From Paludibacteraceae bacterium (GTDB lineage: Bacteria > Bacteroidota > Bacteroidia > Bacteroidales > Paludibacteraceae), in NCBI GenBank assembly GCA_024399835.1, contig JAKSNK010000011.1:1-57517 (forward strand): a stretch of 57,517 bases of DNA. The letters run 5' to 3'. Positions 2,554 to 57,517 of the stretch are shown here, one piece after another; position 1 is the stretch's first letter, and every line of letters starts with the position of its first letter. A program made the position numbers and the translations under genes. The notes beneath the pieces were generated by a model. The model searched no databases. It saw only the letters and a list, made by a program, of their open reading frames with translations, and had not been told where the DNA came from.

Positions 2554-4195
2554 TTTCGAGAATTAAAGTGCGTGTGGGTTGGTCACATACTTCTGTCGGA
2601 CCGTAGTATTGAATAGGTCCGGGATAGATATAATCCATTTCGGCATCTGCCCAAGCGGCACGGTGCTCCTCCAAATACTTAAACGGTTTGCCGTTGAGGT
2701 CCACCAATGCCTTTTGAATAACAGGTTTCATCTTGCCGTTCCGTTTCTCCATATTGAACATCATGGTGATAGGCACACCGCCTGCAATCCATTCGGCAGC
2801 CGGTTTGGTCAGGTTGCGTACAACTGCCATATACCCTGTTTTACCTGCGGCAATCAGATGAGTAGCCGTTTGTCCGAGTGAGTAGCAATAGTCGGCGTCA
2901 AAGTTGGACGGAGTGGCGCAACGACCCTCGTAACCGAAGAAGTGGTGCTGTGTGGAGAACTTGCCGATATAAGTGCCCGATGCTTTCATCTGGGCGAGTT
3001 TTTTGCCTACCATCTCGATAAGCAGTTTCTCGGTTTCAATCAAGCTGACTTGCACATTTCCGTGCGGGTCGCGGTCCATCGTGAGCTGTTTGGCGATTGC
3101 CTTAGGCAGCGAGCGGTAGAGTTCGCAACTGATAGGCGTGAGCATCGATTTGATATACTCGCGCTTGGCATCGTCGCCCTCCATACCGGCAAACTCTTCG
3201 TTATTGGCAAGCAGGTCGTTGAGTTCCTGAATGAGTCGGCGCATAGCGGGAATAAACTCAATCAGTCCCTCAGGAATGAGGACTGTACCGAAGTTCTGTC
3301 CTGCTTTGGCACGGTCTGCCACCACTTGTGCTATCTGGTCAACGATTTCTTGCAAGGTCATATTCTTGGCTTCCACTTCCTCGGAGATGATGCAGATATT
3401 GGGTTGGCTCTGCAACGCACATTCCAAAGCAATATGGCTGGCACTACGACCCATCAGACGGATAAAGTGCCAATATTTCTTAGCCGAGTTGGCGTCACGC
3501 TGGATATTACCGATCAATTCGCTATACACCTTGCAGGCAGTATCAAAACCGAAAGATGTCTCAATCATTTCGTTCTTGAGGTCACCGTCAATGGTCTTCG
3601 GGCAACCAATCACCTGTATGCCGCATTTCTTCTTTTGGTAATACTCCGCCAAAATGCAGGCATTGGTATTGCTGTCGTCACCGCCGATGATAACGATGGC
3701 TGTGATACCCAACTTTTTGCAAATCTCGATTCCGTTGTCAAACTGCCACTCTTCCTCGAGTTTGGTACGCCCCGAACCGATGATGTCAAAGCCGCCGGTA
3801 TTGCGGTATTCGTCAATGATGTCGGATGTCAGCTCCTCGTATTTACCTTCAATCAGTCCGCTGGGACCTCCTAAGAAACCATAGAGTTTGTTGTTGGGGT
3901 TCATCTTCTTGAGTCCGTCAAACAATCCGCAAATCACATTGTGTCCGCCGGGTGCTTGACCGCCACTCAAAATAACTCCAACATGCACAGGGCGTGCCGT
4001 AACAACATCGGCATCTGCCGGCTCCAAGGTCAACATCGGCATTCCGTATGTGTTTGGGAACAATGCCTTGATTTCAACTTGGTCTGCCACCGACTCTGTG
4101 GCTTGACCTTCTCTTACTACTACTTGTCCAAGCAATGCCTTCGGCATCTTGGGTTGATACGATTGACGAGCAATCTGTAAAGGACTTTTTAACAT
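2546..4195 (-). CDS. pfp: Diphosphate-dependent 6-phosphofructokinase (PPi-PFK)
   Basis: Converts fructose 6-phosphate and pyrophosphate to fructose 1,6-bisphosphate and phosphate, reversibly, in glycolysis/gluconeogenesis. At 549 aa it belongs to the 'long' clade found in Bacteroidetes and plants. Visible motifs are the N-terminal [13 protein letters not shown] loop, GGDDSNTNA (the Asp that replaces Gly in ATP-dependent enzymes and marks pyrophosphate specificity), the catalytic [10 protein letters not shown], and [11 protein letters not shown] for sugar-phosphate binding. It lies 24 nt downstream of ispG and overlaps the following TPR-like gene by 8 nt, suggesting one transcript. Confidence 0.93.
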
Positions 4196-50509: not shown

Positions 50510-50594
50510 GGAAAGATGGCGGAGTGGTCGATCGCGGCGGTCTTGAAAACCGTTGAACTGAGAGGTTCCGGGGGTTCGAATCCCTCTCTTTCCG
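50510..50594 (+). tRNA. tRNA-Ser(TGA)
   Basis: An 85-nt class II tRNA. The acceptor is GGAAAGA/TCTTTCC with discriminator G. The anticodon stem GCGGT/ACCGT has loop CTTGAAA (anticodon TGA). A long variable arm follows, then T-arm GGGGG-TTCGAAT-CCCTC. Its 3' 21-23 nt plus downstream flank recur at 50821 and 50958, marking an integration hotspot. Confidence 0.95.
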
Positions 50595-50599
50595 CAAGG
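50577..50599 (+). repeat. att-like core, copy 1 (tRNA-Ser 3' end)
   Basis: CGAATCCCTCTCTTTCCGC followed by AAGG: T-loop edge, T-stem, acceptor 3' strand and 5 flanking bases of tRNA-Ser. It is repeated in direct orientation at 50821-50843 and 50958-50978. Confidence 0.85.
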
Positions 50600-50617
50600 T
50601 AAAATGGCGGATAAAGC

Positions 50618-50649
50618 AAAAAAGAATGGAAAATTTCCATCCTTTTTTT
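50618..50649 (+). terminator. Terminator of tRNA-Ser
   Basis: ATGGAAA/TTTCCAT hairpin flanked by A's and followed by a run of seven T's. Confidence 0.65.
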
Positions 50650-50820
50650 GTTTGCTCTTGTTCTATATTATGCAAGCATATATCGCCCAATCGCAAACAA
50701 TCTCATCGCGAGATTCGCTCTTTTTGCTTTATTCGCCAACCCCGAACAAATGAGAGGGCTTCTCGCCCTTGGGGTTCTCCTTCGCAATGCTCAGTCGATC
50801 TGCTCACTACGTTCGCCGTA

Positions 50821-50843
50821 CGAATCCCTCTCTTTCCGCAAGG
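50821..50843 (+). repeat. att-like core, copy 2
   Basis: A 23-nt exact copy of 50577-50599. The bases upstream do not continue the tRNA, so only its 3' end is duplicated. The 221 bases between copies 1 and 2 hold the tRNA-Ser terminator but no gene I can support. Confidence 0.85.
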
Positions 50844-50957
50844 AAAGTTTAGACTTTTAGCCAAGACGACGGCTAAGTTTACTTAAAGAGGAGTACTTGG
50901 ATAAAAGGATAGGCTCCTTGCAAGGATGCTCCTGGTAAGGAGTGGGGATTACGCAGA

Positions 50958-50978
50958 AATCCCTCTCTTTCCGCAAGG
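50958..50978 (+). repeat. att-like core, copy 3
   Basis: A 21-nt exact match (AATCCCTCTCTTTCCGC plus AAGG) to the tRNA-Ser 3' end. It is preceded by GGGGATTACGCAGA, which can mimic a T-stem. The 220 bases from here to 51200 contain only AT-rich leader sequence and promoters. Confidence 0.85.
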
Positions 50979-51088: not shown

Positions 51089-51199
51089 TAGGCAAAAATA
51101 GAAAAAAAAACGAAAAAAACTACAATGTGACACCAAAATGACACTTTGAAGTTGTACCTTTGTAGGCGGAAAGGAAAAAATCGAAAAGAGATAAAGGAT

Positions 51200-52357
51200 A
51201 TGGAACTGAAAAAAAATATGAATTTTTCTTTTGATTTGTTAGTACAAAAGATAGAACAAGCGCAGTATGTATTGCAAAATAGTGCTCGATTGGTTGTTAA
51301 TCGTCATGTAACAACTAAGGCGTGGCTGACGGGCTATTATATCGTGGAATATGAGCAGCACGGATTGGATAGGGCGCAATATGGGGAGAATGTTATTAAA
51401 AATCTATCACAAAGATTAGGAGGCAATCAGTTTAGTCCTTCTACATTGAAGATATATCGTCAGTTTTATCTTACGTATCCACAACTTCTGCCAGAAATAT
51501 CGCATTTCTTGTTGCCATTTATGCAAAAAGGTCAGCCATTGATTGACCAATTGCAACTTCCTGGTAATCAACCAATAGTAATTAGCCAGTCGGTGACTGA
51601 CCAATTTGAGATGCAATCAAGTGGAAGTTATCTTGTTGCACCAGAAGACTTGTTCAATCGTTTGTCTTTTACGCATTTGGTCACATTGTTACCTATTGAG
51701 GACTCACTAAAGAGGGCGTTTTATGAGACTATGGCAATAAAAGGGACATGGTCTGTTCGAGAATTGGAGAGACAAATAGATACTAATTTGTATGAGCGGA
51801 GCGGCTATAGCAACAATCCTGACAAATTAGTTGAATTAACGAATAATAAAGCAGAAATAGCTACTTTAAGTAGTGACATAAAGTCTCCGTATATTTTTGA
51901 ATTTTTAGGGTTGAAGGCAAAGGATGTTGTAGAGGAAAGTGATTTAGAGTCAGCTATTATAGATCATTTGCAGGAATTTATTTTGGAATTGGGAATGGGT
52001 TTTTGTTTTGAGGAACGTCAAAAGAAGATGTTGATAGATGATCGTTATTATAAGGCGGATTTAGTGTTTTATCATCGTATATTGAAGCGACATATTATTA
52101 TTGAACTCAAGGCGCATCGTTTGGATTATTCAGATGCTACTCAACTTAAGTTATATTTGGCCTATTATCGTAAGCATATTATGCGTATGGATGACAATCC
52201 TCCTATTGGTATTTTAATGTGTACGGAGGTTGGACAGGAAATGGCGGAATATTTAGCGACAGATATGGATAAGGAAGTATTTATCAGCAAATATCATTTA
52301 GATATTCCCAATGAGCAACAAATGAGGCAATTTTTGGAGGAACAAAATAAAGAATAA
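51200..52357 (+). CDS. DUF1016 (YhcG) family PDDEXK nuclease
   Basis: 385 aa from ATG 51200; the longer frame from 51146 starts upstream of a -7-like element and adds a basic, non-conserved stretch. The N-terminal DUF1016 domain is helical (ARLVVNRHVTTKAWLTGYYI, about residues 27-46; GENVIKNLSQRLGGNQFS). The C-terminal nuclease fold shows YKADLVFYHRILKRHIIIEL followed by KAHRLDY, with the D and E-x-K catalytic residues near residues 285-303. The family is widespread in bacterial genomic islands, often beside restriction-modification genes, and is presumed to act on DNA. Here it lies between tRNA-linked att copies and the NurA/HerA operon. Confidence 0.88.
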   Translation: MELKKNMNFSFDLLVQKIEQAQYVLQNSARLVVNRHVTTKAWLTGYYIVEYEQHGLDRAQYGENVIKNLSQRLGGNQFSPSTLKIYRQFYLTYPQLLPEISHFLLPFMQKGQPLIDQLQLPGNQPIVISQSVTDQFEMQSSGSYLVAPEDLFNRLSFTHLVTLLPIEDSLKRAFYETMAIKGTWSVRELERQIDTNLYERSGYSNNPDKLVELTNNKAEIATLSSDIKSPYIFEFLGLKAKDVVEESDLESAIIDHLQEFILELGMGFCFEERQKKMLIDDRYYKADLVFYHRILKRHIIIELKAHRLDYSDATQLKLYLAYYRKHIMRMDDNPPIGILMCTEVGQEMAEYLATDMDKEVFISKYHLDIPNEQQMRQFLEEQNKE

Positions 52358-52488: not shown

Positions 52489-52887
52489 ATGAAAAATATT
52501 ATTGTATTTGTTAATTTATGTATGGTTTCATTACTAGTTATGTCTTGCCAGCCGAAACTCGCAGCAGAAGAAGCTGCTGATGCTATTATGTCTGGTGAGG
52601 AAGATCGATTGCCTGTACTTCTGCAAAAGATGTCCTTTGTAGATACTATAACAATTGATAGTATGCGTATTTGTTGTACAGATGAGCCAATGGATGGTTA
52701 TTTATATACAACATGGACATATCAAAAGAAAGAATGGAAACATTGGACAATGCATCAATATAAAACGACCAGATCTATAATAATTGAAGTGGATAGTATT
52801 AAGCGTAGTAAGGATCATAAAGGATATATTGAATGGCAATCGAATTGGGATGATGCTTACAGTATTGTGTGGAAAGATGCGCTCTAA
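52489..52887 (+). CDS. Small lipoprotein of unknown function
   Basis: 132 aa with a lipoprotein signal (hydrophobic residues 4-18, lipobox LVMSC, Cys20), then a short acidic helix and beta strands containing CC (about residues 62-63). I recognise no family. It has AT-rich codon use like the DUF1016 gene and unlike the housekeeping genes to the left, consistent with island DNA. No promoter with the full consensus is seen. It ends 65 nt before the promoter of the nuclease-motor operon. Confidence 0.55.
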   Translation: MKNIIVFVNLCMVSLLVMSCQPKLAAEEAADAIMSGEEDRLPVLLQKMSFVDTITIDSMRICCTDEPMDGYLYTTWTYQKKEWKHWTMHQYKTTRSIIIEVDSIKRSKDHKGYIEWQSNWDDAYSIVWKDAL

Positions 52888-52951: not shown

Positions 52952-52983
52952 TTTGTTTATTCCAAAAATTTTTAGTACCTTTG
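52952..52983 (+). promoter_or_regulatory. Promoter of the NurA-HerA-GHKL-radical SAM operon
   Basis: TTTG (52952-52955), 20-nt spacer, TACCTTTG (52976-52983), 57 nt before the first start codon. The foreign-looking island thus uses the host promoter type. Confidence 0.65.
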
Positions 52984-53040: not shown

Positions 53041-54213
53041 ATGGGCAAGATACTAGATTTTATAAGTAAAGAAACTGATGGCAGTTGTTTTACATCATAC
53101 AAGCATAGCTATGATGATGCTGGTATTCCTAGCATTGAATATGAGGCACAAGAAGATACTTACATCAACCTAAAAGAATATGCTGAAGATATTAAAGATC
53201 CCAAACCACGGGATTTGACGCAACGAGCCCAAATTTGTATGCAAGGACCACCGCTTTTCAAGTTTTTCTTAGATGGTTCCCGTAAGGTCTATAAACTTGA
53301 TGACATCCAATACGATAGAAAAGTATATCCCATTGTAGGAGGTCAAATTTCGGTAGCATGTTGTGGTCGAGATTCGGATGAAAATGGTCATTATGTGGGA
53401 TTTCATAAAATTGAAGAAACATCATATTCTGTCCTATGCCTTCCAGTGAAAGCCAATGGCGACGGCATAGACCATAATGTTTTTTTTCGCAATCTTGCAG
53501 ATAAAATAAAAAGTTTACCGTCTCTACATGCGAATAACATACACTTTGAAAAAGTATTATACTACCAAACGAAACTTGAAGGTAGAGAGACTTTGGAGAA
53601 TAAAGCCATCGCACGTATTCAAGATGAAATGGTTGATTGTGAGAAACGCATTGTGTCTGAGTTGATGAATCGTCATCTACTAACACAAGATAGTTACCTA
53701 ATAAAAGATGGGTCTATTCAATATAAACCTATGAAAACTGGCGACTACAAAGAATTGACGCGAATCAGAAGTAATTACCGGCATGTAATTGGAGTCTCAA
53801 AAAAATTTAATCCAAATTTAATGCGAGATCAAAAAGATCAAAGTAATGCTGGTGCGATTGCTCGCTTGCCTCTCTATCATCGTACTCCTGCTTTCTTATG
53901 GCAACCCGGTGAAGAATGGGGAAATGTAACATTTGCTATTTGGTATGTACGTCTTCACGATAGGAAATATACAGACTCTCCATATGCTGGCATCGTAAAA
54001 GTGGAAAAGATGTTGATGACTGGGCACGAAGCTGAATATGGTTTATTAACAGACGAAATAGATACAATCACGGCAAATCTCATAAATGAGCGTAATCCTG
54101 TATGTTATGGAAATGACGAGCGATGGGCAAATCACATTTATCCAGTTTATATGACGGAATGTTATTGTAAAAGCCGTTTCGTAAGTGATTATTACTTTAT
54201 GAACATTTTCTAA
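53041..54213 (+). CDS. NurA-like nuclease
   Basis: 390 aa. I assign it to the NurA nuclease fold (RNase H-like, 5'-3' nuclease that works with HerA) from four features. These are FFLDGSRKVYKL with the first catalytic Asp (D78), the following VGGQISVACCGRD strand, DSYLIKDGSIQYKP with the second Asp (D223), and HVIGVSKKFNP, plus a C-terminal FAIWYVRLHD...GIVKVEK segment containing E322. In family terms these are the AxDGS, DGxL, GxxK and R/VE elements. The HerA-like gene 12 nt downstream strongly supports the call. No signal peptide is present, so it acts in the cytoplasm, probably degrading or resecting DNA ends. The family assignment is from motif reading only. Confidence 0.7.
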   Translation: MGKILDFISKETDGSCFTSYKHSYDDAGIPSIEYEAQEDTYINLKEYAEDIKDPKPRDLTQRAQICMQGPPLFKFFLDGSRKVYKLDDIQYDRKVYPIVGGQISVACCGRDSDENGHYVGFHKIEETSYSVLCLPVKANGDGIDHNVFFRNLADKIKSLPSLHANNIHFEKVLYYQTKLEGRETLENKAIARIQDEMVDCEKRIVSELMNRHLLTQDSYLIKDGSIQYKPMKTGDYKELTRIRSNYRHVIGVSKKFNPNLMRDQKDQSNAGAIARLPLYHRTPAFLWQPGEEWGNVTFAIWYVRLHDRKYTDSPYAGIVKVEKMLMTGHEAEYGLLTDEIDTITANLINERNPVCYGNDERWANHIYPVYMTECYCKSRFVSDYYFMNIF

Positions 54214-54225
54214 AAATCAGATATA

Positions 54226-55881
54226 ATGGAGACCATAGGAAAAATTATTGCGACGGAAAAGCAACCGTCCACCATCGAGGAATTTACTTTTTGGACTCGA
54301 AAAGATTTAAAGTTAAAACCATTTGATGTGGTTGTAGTTGAGCATGTAGAAGAATCAAAGACATATGGTGTAGTTGAAGAAATTTCACATATGACGGATT
54401 CTCCCAGTGCACTATCTGGCTATATTTCCAGCGATTTTGGTGATGTTGAAGCGATGGCATATACTGAGCGTATAGGAATGAACTATGTAAAATGCAAGGT
54501 GGTCGGGAATGACCGAAATGTTTATATACCAGTGCAGGAAGGTCGTAAAGTTTTTCTTGCGACAAAAGAAGAAATTATGGAGGCACTTGGTCTAAATGAT
54601 GTCAAAAATCCATTGCCAGCTGGTTATATGGAAATGTATGATGGCGCTAATCGGCAAATGCTTCCTGTGCATTTTAATTCTCATTTTCTTATTGGTCCTG
54701 AAGGCGCACATCTTAATATTTCAGGTATATCTGGTTTGGCTTCTAAAACTTCTTATGCTATGTTCTTGATGAAAGCCATTCAAGATCAAATGAGTAAACA
54801 AGATAAAGAGTCTGTCGCGTTCATTATGATGAATGTAAAGGGAACCGACTTACTCAAAATCGACCAACTCAACGAACGTAAGGATGAACTAGAAGAAATC
54901 CGTCCAATCTATGAAAAACTTGGTATGGATATGAAACCTTTCCAACAGGTAAAATATTATTACCCATACTCTAAAGATAATATTTCCTATACTTATGAGA
55001 AAGAACAAGTTATCAAAGATCGTATAGCAGCTGGTAAGGCATTCCAATATAAATACCTATTTGAAAATGATGAAGATAAAGAATGTCTAGACCTCCTTTT
55101 TGCTAATGTTGATGATCCGAATGATACTATTGAAAGTATTATCAATTTCATTATTTCCAATGGCGGAAACTTTAAAGGAGTAGAAAGTTGGGAAGAATTT
55201 AAACAAGCATTGTATCAGCAGACACAAACAGAAACAGCATCTAAAGCAGGAAAAGAAATTTCTGTTATGAGTTGGCGCAAATTCTATCGCCTATTCAACA
55301 AAAGTTTCCAAAAATGCCGTCAAATGTTTACGGAGAAACTTGGAGGGCAAAGTGTACGTCTCCGTGATGAGGTTGCAAAGATTAAGAAAAACGATGTAAT
55401 GGTGGTAGATATTGCCAAAATGGATGAAGAATCTCAGGGATTTGTGTTTGGCGATGTTATGCGTGCTGTCTATAACCTCAAATTGGGAGATACCCCTGAA
55501 CGTGAAGATATTCCAGATCGTATTATTATTTTCATTGACGAATTGAACAAGTATGCATCTAACGATGTTCCTAAGTCTTCACCAATTCTTCGTCAACTTC
55601 TGGATATTACGGAACGTGGGCGCTCGTTGGGTATTGTCCTCTTTGGAGCAGAACAATTTGTAAGCGATATTCACAAACGCGTAAAAGGCAATTGTGCTAC
55701 ACAAGCATTTGGTCGTACCAATGCAATTGAAATCACTAAAGAAGATTTCCGTTTCGTGCCGTCTGTTTATAAAACAATGCTTACTCGTCAAAAGCAAGGC
55801 GAATATATTATTCAGAATCCGGTCTTCCGCTCAATGCTGAATATCAAGTTCCCCAAACCCATTTATAAATACTACGAATAA
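54226..55881 (+). CDS. HerA-like DNA translocase ATPase with a variant Walker A
   Basis: 551 aa. It has an N-terminal beta-barrel (HAS-barrel like, about residues 1-130: FWTRKDLKLKPFDVVVVEHV), then a RecA/FtsK-type ATPase core. The P-loop reads GISGLASKTS (167-176), with one residue more than HerA's GxxGxGKS/T. A helical insertion covers about 215-385. Walker B is IIIFIDELNKYAS (D438, E439), and TERGRSLGIVLFGAEQFVS and ATQAFGRTNAIEI are the sensor and arginine-finger regions of HerA/FtsK hexamers. It would form a hexameric motor that feeds DNA to the NurA-like nuclease. It sits 12 nt after that gene and 2 nt before the GHKL ATPase gene. Confidence 0.75.
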   Translation: METIGKIIATEKQPSTIEEFTFWTRKDLKLKPFDVVVVEHVEESKTYGVVEEISHMTDSPSALSGYISSDFGDVEAMAYTERIGMNYVKCKVVGNDRNVYIPVQEGRKVFLATKEEIMEALGLNDVKNPLPAGYMEMYDGANRQMLPVHFNSHFLIGPEGAHLNISGISGLASKTSYAMFLMKAIQDQMSKQDKESVAFIMMNVKGTDLLKIDQLNERKDELEEIRPIYEKLGMDMKPFQQVKYYYPYSKDNISYTYEKEQVIKDRIAAGKAFQYKYLFENDEDKECLDLLFANVDDPNDTIESIINFIISNGGNFKGVESWEEFKQALYQQTQTETASKAGKEISVMSWRKFYRLFNKSFQKCRQMFTEKLGGQSVRLRDEVAKIKKNDVMVVDIAKMDEESQGFVFGDVMRAVYNLKLGDTPEREDIPDRIIIFIDELNKYASNDVPKSSPILRQLLDITERGRSLGIVLFGAEQFVSDIHKRVKGNCATQAFGRTNAIEITKEDFRFVPSVYKTMLTRQKQGEYIIQNPVFRSMLNIKFPKPIYKYYE

Positions 55882-55883
55882 TT

Positions 55884-57460
55884 ATGTCAGAAACTAAAAT
55901 AGGAAAATATGCTATTGAGTCGCTCACTCGTAAGTATGTATGAAGATAGTCGCTGCATTTATCGTGAATATGTCCAAAATGCAGCAGATCAAATAGATAT
56001 TGCTTGCGAACAACATCTTGATCCAAGCAATTATTATGATATTCAGATATGGATTGACGAGGAAAATCGTCGAATAGAAATTGAAGACACTGCAACAGGT
56101 GTTTCAAAAGAAAGGGTTAATCTTCTCCGTGATGTTGCTTGTTCAACCAAACATCGCGGAAAGCAAAAGGGATTCCGTGGTATTGGACGTTTGGGAGGTC
56201 TTGGATATTGCTCTAATTTGATTTTCATAACATCATTCAAAGGGGAAGATGTGCAGACTATTATGCGCTGGGATGCTGATAGAATGAATCAACTCATAGA
56301 TGATGAGATGGATGATAGTGAGGCAGGAGCAGTTATCGACCAATGCGTTTCTTATGAATACAAACACGAGGATTCCGAAAAACATTATTTCCGCGTAGTT
56401 ATGGAGCATGTTACTGATGATAAACTTCTCCAAGTTGATGCTATCTCCCAATATCTTAGCATGGTTGCACCTGTTGATTATCCTACTGCATTTAGTAAAT
56501 TTGGTCATCAAATCAAGCAGTATATGCGCGACAATAATTTGTCCCTTGATACATATAATTTGTTTGTGAATGGAGACCAAATATACAAGGGCTATACTAC
56601 GCGTATTGTGGATGCCAAAAATGGTGACTATGATGTTACAGATATCCAATTCTTCAGTCAAAAAGATTCTAACGAAAAATTCCTCTATTGGGGATGGTAT
56701 TCAGTATCTGAATTGCGTGGACAGATTCCTGCTTATAACATTCCGTATGGTATGCGTCTCCGTTGCAAGAACATTCAAATAGGAGATGAGACGACTTGTC
56801 GTAGGTTTTTTAATGCAGATGGTGATAGGCGTTTTGCTCAATATTTTTATGGTGAGGTAAATGTTGTTAACCCAGATTTACAGCCAGATGGACGTCGTGA
56901 CTATTTTAGAGAAGGAGATTTACGCCGGCATTTTGAAAAACTACTCACCACCGATTTCCAAATACTCAAAGTTTTGTGTAATGAAGCTTCCGACATACGT
57001 GGTACAGTCAAGAAGTTTACTACAGCAGTTAATGGTCAAGAGACTATTCAGAAAAAAACGCACAACGGGATTTGTCAGCCAAGCAGAAAAGGATAGCAGC
57101 GAGCAACAGTTCCAAAGATATCAAAAGGACAAAGAAAAATATGCCGCTCAGTTCAGCAATATGCAAGCTAAGTCGCAGCAAGCAGGTTCGCCATTGAGTT
57201 TTATGTTTCAAAATGTGACAGAAACACAACCTGCTATTTCACAGTTAACAAAGCAGCAAGATCCTGTACAAACACAAACACCTTCAGTACCAGAAAGTGA
57301 CATTACTAAACTTCGTACTGATAATGCAACATATTGCAAGTTTGGTAAAAAGGAGAGATATATTATTCAAACTATTTACGATGCTATCTATGCTGCTATC
57401 GCAGATGATATGATGCGAGAGAGTTTGATAAATAGAATCGAGAGTGCATTAATAAAATGA
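55884..57460 (+). pseudogene. GHKL (Hsp90/MutL-type) ATPase, interrupted by two frameshifts
   Basis: The intact product would be about 524 aa. Translation from ATG 55884 gives MSETKIGKYAIESLTR, then runs into TGA at 55941. The second frame from about 55933 continues SMYEDSRCIYREYVQNAADQ, the GHKL N-box with E28 and N32. The ATP motifs are IEDTATGVS (D68) and RGIGRLGGLG (about 98-107). At an A7 run (57052-57058) the frame shifts again: one frame stops at 57096, the other carries the Gln-rich linker and helical tail to 57460. Removing one base at each site restores a single frame. It may be a decayed gene, a phase-variable or recoded gene, or an assembly error. It is coupled to HerA (2 nt) and the radical SAM gene (overlap ATGA). 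Confidence 0.7.
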
Positions 57461-57517
57461 GGAATATTTTATTATTAGAACCCAACTATAAGAATAAGTT
57501 TCCCCCTATCGGACTCA
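57457..57517 (+). CDS. Start of a B12-binding radical SAM protein (truncated by window edge)
   Basis: Only 20 codons are present: MRNILLLEPNYKNKFPPIGL. The pattern ILLLEPNYKNK-x-PP-x-GL is the usual start of B12-binding-domain radical SAM proteins, though the CxxxCxxC cluster motif lies outside the window. The ATG overlaps the stop of the GHKL gene (ATGA at 57457-57460), so it belongs to the same operon. Confidence 0.5.
   Translation, partial: MRNILLLEPNYKNKFPPIGL

Follow-up and report, generated by a model that had tools for sequence, protein, structure and literature searches.

In this study we analyzed an operon at the 3'-end of a stretch of DNA of 57,517 nucleotides (nt) from a Paludibacteraceae bacterium (contig JAKSNK010000011.1), the whole of which is referred to here as the window. 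The operon joins genes for a NurA-like nuclease, a HerA-like DNA translocase, an Hsp90-like ATPase of the GHKL type and a putative radical SAM (rSAM) enzyme of the B12-binding type. From its sequence and distribution we read this four-gene set as an undescribed restriction-like system. With a probability of about 0.55, the operon is a mobile system of this kind against foreign DNA, with an exchangeable GHKL protein, NurA-HerA as the effector and the rSAM enzyme as self-marker.

Scanning of genome contigs yielded at least 455 candidate stretches with a HerA relative, of which the best 80 (L020-L099) were kept; close relatives of HerA are overrepresented in this sample, which also includes near duplicates. 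Within it, the four genes were found in order and on one strand in all 66 testable loci. Recurrence of the gene order, on which the sequence-only reading of the window had staked its proposal of a new system, was thus borne out. In the loci with room, NurA was located upstream of HerA in 76 out of 76 cases, GHKL downstream of it in 77 out of 77, and rSAM in 69 out of 69. Gaps ranged from -30 to 60 nt in 74 of 76, 73 of 78 and 63 of 74 measured cases, the remainder being accounted for by accessory genes or by calls of open reading frame (ORF) starts. Titles of the recurring loci name Bacteroidales, Flavobacteria, Clostridia, Ignavibacteria, Treponema, Thermoguttaceae and others. Some labels of metagenome-assembled genomes (MAGs) are doubtful, namely those of L025, L082 and L084. 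Identical operon coordinates and scores of the latter two, in MAGs labelled Ignavibacteriales and Syntrophaceae, make mis-binning likely; L084, with the same match lines as L082, is counted in the 66 loci and was dropped from the comparisons of gene distances and of close pairs.

Genome samples gave a similar picture, although they overlap (L024 is a contig of G289, L050 lies in G303, and others are possible), so that the tallies are not independent. The sample from the window's order comprised 295 genomes and is taken to be Bacteroidales because G289 is the Parabacteroides chinchillae contig. HerA was found in 8 of them, and rSAM was matched in 52, strongly (E below 1e-40) in 11; the 41 weaker genomes were left out. 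HerA and strong rSAM were shared by 7 genomes and belonged to the same cluster in all 7, in the window's genome by contig overlap; one of these clusters, in G174, is degraded with a split rSAM gene. Further rSAM loci of this sample were cut by contig ends (G083, G183), combined with a split GHKL gene without adjoining NurA-HerA (G057) or reduced to an rSAM fragment (G294), and the HerA gene of G274 lies at a contig end. Starting from rSAM, 6 of 395 genomes of the window's phylum had a match, of which 5, the window's own included, contained the full four-gene order and one a fragment. In 378 genomes of the phylum of Thermotalea, which we take to be Bacillota, HerA was matched in 14, of which 11 were strong and 3 weak, the latter not being counted as such. 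The four-gene set was present in G300, the chosen centre of the sample, G393, G559 and G305. These represent 4 of the 8 genomes with rSAM; the other 4 have no adjoining NurA-HerA.

Comparison with known structures identifies the 551-amino acid (aa) protein firmly as HerA. Its Pfam match to the HAS barrel (3.5e-4) lies under the Pfam cut-off, while Walker A-like and Walker B motifs are present. A profile of 7 close relatives matched the HerA chain of PDB entry 7F6D at 7.1e-46, and a wide profile of 17 sequences matched it at 3.6e-112. The latter alignment covers residues 10-601 of 618 and takes in the unusual GISGxATKTS loop. According to the available part of PMC12977600, this entry is the HerA-NurA complex of Deinococcus radiodurans. 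Identification of the 390-aa protein as NurA is of moderate confidence. The narrowest profile (7 close relatives) gave no PDB match up to E 10. With 57 relatives the NurA chain of 7F6D was the sole PDB match (0.017), with 14 sequences including methylase-type NurA it reached 6.4e-4 (next RNA polymerase omega 0.028 and Vipp1 0.4), and with 17 sequences 5.3e-9 (next RNA polymerase omega 0.24), which makes it the top PDB match for 3 of 4 profiles. The last profile was widened with three proteins, one from a phage and two from plasmids, that were taken for NurA because they precede HerA; one of the plasmid proteins, searched alone, matched 7F6D NurA at just 0.81. Neither Pfam nor PHROGs recognized the 390-aa protein as NurA, and the Pfam family NurA (PF09376) was absent from the window's genome and from nine records behind related loci. 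The reading as NurA is strengthened because the partner HerA matches the same complex and because residues D78, E201, D223 and K254 are invariant among the relatives aligned; the acidic residues among them are presumably catalytic. Profile searches linked both proteins to 7F6D, HerA firmly and NurA moderately, in line with the NurA and HerA assignments of the sequence-only reading.

By family, the third protein is a GHKL ATPase with N, G1 and G2 boxes, a Pfam match to HATPase_c_3 (3.6e-6), HtpG as best PDB match (3.7e-10), and E31, N35, D71 and G75 invariant in 45 sequences. Its relatives are encoded by a single ORF of about 525 aa. In the window, the gene is spread over three frames (55884-55943 in the first, the core 55909-57096 in the second, and a tail up to 57460 in the third). 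Thus, the family initially assigned to it was right and the single intact gene had to be rejected. The N, G1 and G2 boxes of the core start at 55963, 56086 and 56170, and relative to related genes the breaks lie near 55930 and 57055. For their mapping, GHKL proteins of five relatives served as queries. All five matched a core of about 380 residues within a single frame, and three (L021, L022, L023) matched the C-terminal 135-160 residues in a second frame; a short N-terminal match in a third frame was obtained with four and was strong for L022 alone (94% over 16 aa, E 2.8e-5). The breaks represent either real mutations or assembly errors, and the window's own operon copy may be inactive. The GHKL gene of Parabacteroides chinchillae also has an internal stop, and in G292 a 428-aa ORF on the opposite strand lies inside HerA. 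A length test on L020-L099 flagged 10 genes, from 8 loci, as lacking a normal ORF over their full length; two of these genes are over-long ORF calls (L033 GHKL, L085 rSAM), which leaves 8 genes in 6 of 80 loci. The rSAM protein, of which 633 aa are read on a second contig (about 635 aa in all), carries a CX3CX2C motif whose first two cysteines are invariant and whose third is at least 90% conserved in 52 sequences. It matched the phage family phrog_9298 in PHROGs (7.5e-39), and no PDB match below 0.02 was found for it.

The GHKL gene differs from the other three genes in its divergence. Over 59 loci with four intact genes, distances of NurA, HerA and rSAM correlated with r 0.90-0.95 and those of GHKL with r 0.74-0.79. 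Each correlation was reached in 0 of 500 permutations, and shared descent alone can produce such correlations. Among 24 pairs with a HerA identity of 90% or more, 19 had GHKL as the least conserved protein. In 6 of the 24, which stand for few independent events since L037 and L030 recur, GHKL identity was 60-64% with the other genes at 87% or more. Proteins of L037 and L038 are 99% (NurA), 100% (HerA), 99% (rSAM) and 63% (GHKL) identical. At DNA level, in steps of 150 bases, identity was 87-100% across NurA and HerA, dropped at the GHKL gene borders to 50-73%, and returned to 91-100% in rSAM; L030 and L032 gave a similar profile. Likewise, the window and L020 share 83% (NurA), 93% (HerA), 79% (rSAM) and 46% (GHKL core), the latter being 67% identical to that of L022. 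L048 and L050 are alike at their ends and differ between the first GHKL gene and rSAM, where one contains a second GHKL gene and a 340-aa gene, and the other a 461-aa ATPase (AAA_15, by its L043 homologue), a 273-aa gene and a second GHKL gene. Recognition subunits such as HsdS are exchanged while the rest of their operon stays fixed. Since the GHKL gene is swapped inside a fixed operon in the same way, it is read as the recognition part.

Apart from being patchy, the operon is, to judge from protein identities, horizontally moved. Window HerA shares 90% of its residues with the Hoylesella protein, 82% with the one from Parabacteroides and 80-82% with those from two Alistipes MAGs. For a ParA-like protein of these four genomes, identity is only 70%, 70% and 59-60%. 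This protein was named by eye, and seven genomes were asked, two of which lacked a good ParA match. The sole solved NurA and the best solved HerA chain matched belong to D. radiodurans, whose HerA-NurA is predicted to be end-resection machinery in the available part of PMC12977600, and distant HerA relatives on three plasmids lie beside an SbcD-type exonuclease and large genes. This would fit a role of the operon in DNA repair or end resection. We consider such a role unlikely, given the scarcity of HerA in the order (8 of 295 genomes) and of the four-gene set in the other phylum (4 of 378, one of them chosen), the horizontal movement of the operon, the repeated exchange of one gene and the broken copies. 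Moreover, the same part of PMC12977600 describes nurA and herA knockouts with damage resistance not lowered or even raised.

NurA-HerA and rSAM also occur with other partners. Six NurA-HerA loci in the 378-genome sample lack GHKL and rSAM genes and adjoin a gene for a protein of 1,083-1,111 aa, four of them also one for 409-420 aa; a seventh, in G599, is a broken copy with a fragment of the large methylase-type gene. The large proteins show 47-83% similarity and the small ones 38-41% to the L157 protein. One of each was scanned and matched N6_Mtase/Eco57I and N6_N4_Mtase above Pfam cut-offs. This second arrangement (L155-L160), which joins NurA-HerA to a ~1,090-aa PglX/MADS2-like methylase and in 4 of 6 cases also to a methylase-like protein of ~410 aa, may be a separate restriction-modification-like system. 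In G322, G477, G625 and G578, the rSAM gene adjoins genes for three proteins that are related between these genomes, namely a coiled-coil ATPase, a small protein and a large helicase. In NCBIfam searches, the two ATPases scanned resembled DndD (1.8e-49 and 5.3e-43), the two small proteins scanned dnd_assoc_4 (6.1e-5 and 6.6e-12) and the one helicase scanned TIGR04095 (1.2e-141). A DGQHR/DndB-like protein is also encoded in G322, and GHKL is present in 2 of the 4 loci. At L161, L162, L163 and L166, rSAM relatives stand beside a DndD-type ATPase, a dnd_assoc_4-like protein and a restriction-type helicase; these loci are possibly an rSAM variant of the CxC/Pbe systems. Taken together, the gene context suggests that GHKL-rSAM and DNA methylases can stand in for one another next to NurA-HerA, as can NurA-HerA and Dnd/Pbe-type restriction genes next to rSAM. 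Available sections of PMC10853773 describe a swapping of modification enzymes around Dnd cores, and by analogy we infer that the rSAM enzyme extends this pattern as such an exchanged enzyme.

A defence role receives indirect support from the exchange of GHKL, from horizontal transfer, from the Dnd/Pbe-type or methylase partners of sister systems, and from the occurrence of some broken copies. In the proposed mechanism, NurA-HerA would be the conserved effector, in which the HerA motor pulls DNA into the NurA nuclease, as deduced from members of these families in D. radiodurans and in archaea. The GHKL protein would act as exchangeable recognition or triggering subunit, whose ATP-driven clamping on an invader signal licenses HerA-NurA. 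The rSAM enzyme seems to fill the place of the DNA-modifying enzymes in the sister systems and, from its gene context, most likely places a mark on DNA, or on one of the proteins of the complex, thereby sparing self. A tentative form of this idea is an immunity resembling restriction-modification, in which rSAM would install a new DNA mark, GHKL would be the HsdS-like specificity subunit and NurA-HerA would restrict. A role in signalling or nucleotide poisoning, in which rSAM would make a modified small molecule, as viperin does, or modify a peptide, and GHKL would sense and then activate NurA-HerA, appears distinctly improbable. Radical SAM viperins are antiviral (PMC12926258, in its available part) and GHKL is the most variable protein in 19 of the 24 close pairs, which would both suit such a role, but no conserved cyclase, kinase or precursor was found among the clustered loci (genes of at least 80 aa), rSAM matches phrog_9298, and its relatives lie beside Dnd-type genes.

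Some relatives are carried by mobile elements. Five related contigs were found in IMG/VR, four with all four genes and the fifth with NurA-HerA. HerA was matched by 2 of 50,697 phage records, among them an unannotated 8.9-kb record of a 'Bacteriophage sp.' with 56% identity, and by 6 of 72,556 plasmid records. Three of the six were opened, in which the distant HerA relatives described above neighbor the exonuclease gene and the large genes, two of them annotated as SMC. In Marinitoga camini virus 1 (L118:4927-8753), NurA-HerA is located next to an rSAM gene of phrog_9298 on the opposite strand. Another rSAM of phrog_9298 (289 aa, L111:1264-2133) lies in a prophage-like stretch with, by eye, a DNA methylase and a PAPS-reductase-like protein as neighbors. 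For the operon's surroundings, 150 of 236 collected neighbor genes were compared with 150 of 163 control genes from 19 stretches, some of which lie in operon-bearing genomes (L175 and L179 even on the operon's contig, at a distance of up to about 25 kb), which makes the control imperfect. The neighbors matched 129 and the controls 205 Pfam families, counted as families. RhuM was found in 3 of 150 neighbors, and DUF1016, relaxase, integrase and two transposase domains in 2 of 150 each, none of which appeared in controls among the 25 families listed per set. The viral contigs, the Marinitoga virus, the 56% identical phage HerA and the relaxase, integrase and transposase domains would be expected if the operon were a DNA-processing module by which phages or integrative elements handle their own DNA. 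This is very unlikely to be its role, as no integrase, relaxase or structural gene is a shared neighbor in the clustered loci and matches are confined to just five viral contigs and the few phage and plasmid records given above. Among genes of at least 80 aa, no further one was common to more than 12 clustered loci.

Several observations weigh against a restriction-like system with an exchangeable GHKL part. One of the five genomes with a good ParA match, a Chryseobacterium, has 63% ParA and 63-64% HerA identity, which does not indicate transfer there. Conservation is lowest for rSAM in 5 of the 24 close pairs, and between L027 (8755-10764) and L025 (8460-10373) this protein is only 75% identical with NurA, HerA and GHKL at 96-99%, so that here rSAM seems to have been exchanged. 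The clearest pairs for GHKL exchange are MAGs, in which chimeric assembly is possible. Among more distant relatives, NurA-HerA commonly occurs without GHKL and rSAM, as in 7 of the 11 genomes with strong HerA of the 378-genome sample. The B12-binding and Radical_SAM matches of rSAM lie under Pfam cut-offs. Its Dnd-type partners, the DGQHR domain excepted, score under NCBIfam cut-offs, which is why they are counted as relatives only. PADLOC, run on window proteins only, matched HerA weakly with mad8 (1.1e-8), and the 149 PADLOC models matched by neighbor genes as compared to 97 by controls include redundant models and are not counts of genes, so that the two sets are not cleanly separated and the difference is suggestive at most.

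The layout of the operon is summarized in Table 1. The spacing described from sequence alone was confirmed, with a gap of 12 nt between NurA and HerA, one of 2 nt between HerA and the GHKL ATG (55884), and a 4-nt overlap of the GHKL stop at 57460 with the rSAM ATG at 57457. A single promoter had also been proposed. Upstream of the NurA gene a candidate does exist, based on what we take to be the Bacteroidetes consensus; taken alone it is weak, because the loose pattern occurs 9 times on the plus strand of the whole window. The window is contig C3 of its genome, end to end, and its 3'-end is a contig break. The first 55 bases of contig C22, the sole other place in the genome matching operon DNA, are identical to its last 55 bases. 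The rSAM gene proposed for the window is therefore present, although only ~20 codons of it lie inside; extension beyond 57517 completes it on C22 and adds a fifth gene and a terminating hairpin. In this genome the operon consists of five genes, four of them general. The fifth has no significant family match in Pfam, NCBIfam or PHROGs and was rejected as a core member, its family being found in only 11 fetched loci besides the window.

Table 1. Features of the operon in the window and on the adjoining contig C22
Feature	Position	Strand	Remarks
Promoter candidate, Bacteroidetes-type	52952..52983	+	Pattern match: TTTG at 52952, 20-nt spacer, TACCTTTG at 52976
NurA-like nuclease gene, 390 aa	53041..54213	+	LDGS at aa 77, KDGS at 222, GVSK at 251, RWANH at 361
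HerA-like DNA translocase gene, 551 aa	54226..55881	+	HAS barrel; GISGLASKTS at aa 167, FIDELNK at aa 436
GHKL (Hsp90-like) ATPase gene, broken	55884..57460	+	Three frames
Putative B12-binding-type rSAM gene, start only	57457..57517	+	Rest on contig C22, L003:1-1902
Fifth gene, 339 aa	L003:1899-2918 (contig C22)	Same as operon	4-nt overlap with rSAM
Hairpin followed by T run	Arms L003:2937-2953 and 2958-2974		Downstream of fifth gene; closes operon

Upstream of the operon, an 18-nt piece of a tRNA-Ser 3'-end is present in three exact copies at 50581, 50825 and 50960 (0 of 100 shuffles), within 400 bp (50581-50977), as would result from repeated integration. With at most one mismatch in 17 of these bases no further copy was found in the searched genome, and with up to three mismatches none in the first 20,000 bases of C22. 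The tRNA-linked att-like site noted earlier is therefore represented by upstream repeats without a copy on the far side, and location of the operon inside an att-bounded island is not supported. Between repeats and operon lie a gene for a YhcG/DUF1016-type PDDEXK nuclease (51146-52357; the likelier start is the ATG at 51200), which matches the PADLOC candidate family PDC-S02 (9.9e-113), and a small lipoprotein-like ORF of 132 aa (52489-52887) without Pfam or PADLOC match.

Among known systems, HerA-NurA of D. radiodurans (7F6D) shares adjacent genes, a homologous HerA including the GISGxATKTS loop, and the NurA match. In contrast, the window pair is part of a patchy, mobile operon with GHKL and rSAM, and its NurA is far diverged. 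SIR2-HerA and HerA-DUF4297 join the HerA motor to an effector, which here is NurA, and neither SIR2 nor DUF4297 was matched in the Pfam, NCBIfam and PADLOC scans made. MADS shares the weak mad8 match of HerA; no other match to it was found among the operon proteins (PADLOC on window proteins, NCBIfam). The phage proteins of phrog_9298 resemble the window rSAM of about 635 aa and are shorter, with a profile of 305 positions and two short relatives of 289 and 360 aa. In the available part of PMC10853773, CxC ABC-ATPase/DndE systems (PbeABCD) are described, which the rSAM relatives adjoining DndD-type ATPase, dnd_assoc_4-like and dnd_restrict_1-like genes resemble. The window operon has NurA-HerA instead of a CxC ABC ATPase, DndE and HKD-SF2 helicase, none of which was matched by operon proteins in Pfam and NCBIfam. 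HerA/FtsK capture systems, including DndFGH and BREX-related ones, combine a HerA-type translocase, a nuclease and fast-evolving sensory parts (available parts of PMC10853773 and PMC12839542). DndFGH, PglZ, Orc/Cdc6, GNAT and TGT were not found in operon proteins (all with Pfam and NCBIfam, window proteins with PADLOC). The available text of PMC10853773 names neither NurA nor GHKL, and radical SAM only about DndC, and that of PMC12839542 neither radical SAM nor GHKL. The sequence-only reading knew of no characterised system with this set, and no description of it was found among the matches listed in full-text literature, which leaves subscription papers and preprints mostly outside; the sole match with NurA, HerA and radical SAM, PMC11229311, names them apart in its available part.

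If the reading as a restriction-like system is true, bacterial NurA-HerA would gain a defence role in a strictly ordered and widely spread four-gene system, although not all of the at least 455 candidate stretches with HerA relatives need be this system. An Hsp90-like ATPase would be a swappable recognition part, and a radical SAM enzyme would become a candidate for DNA modification. The idea of recognition by GHKL lends itself to a direct test, as nearly identical operons exist that differ in their GHKL genes.

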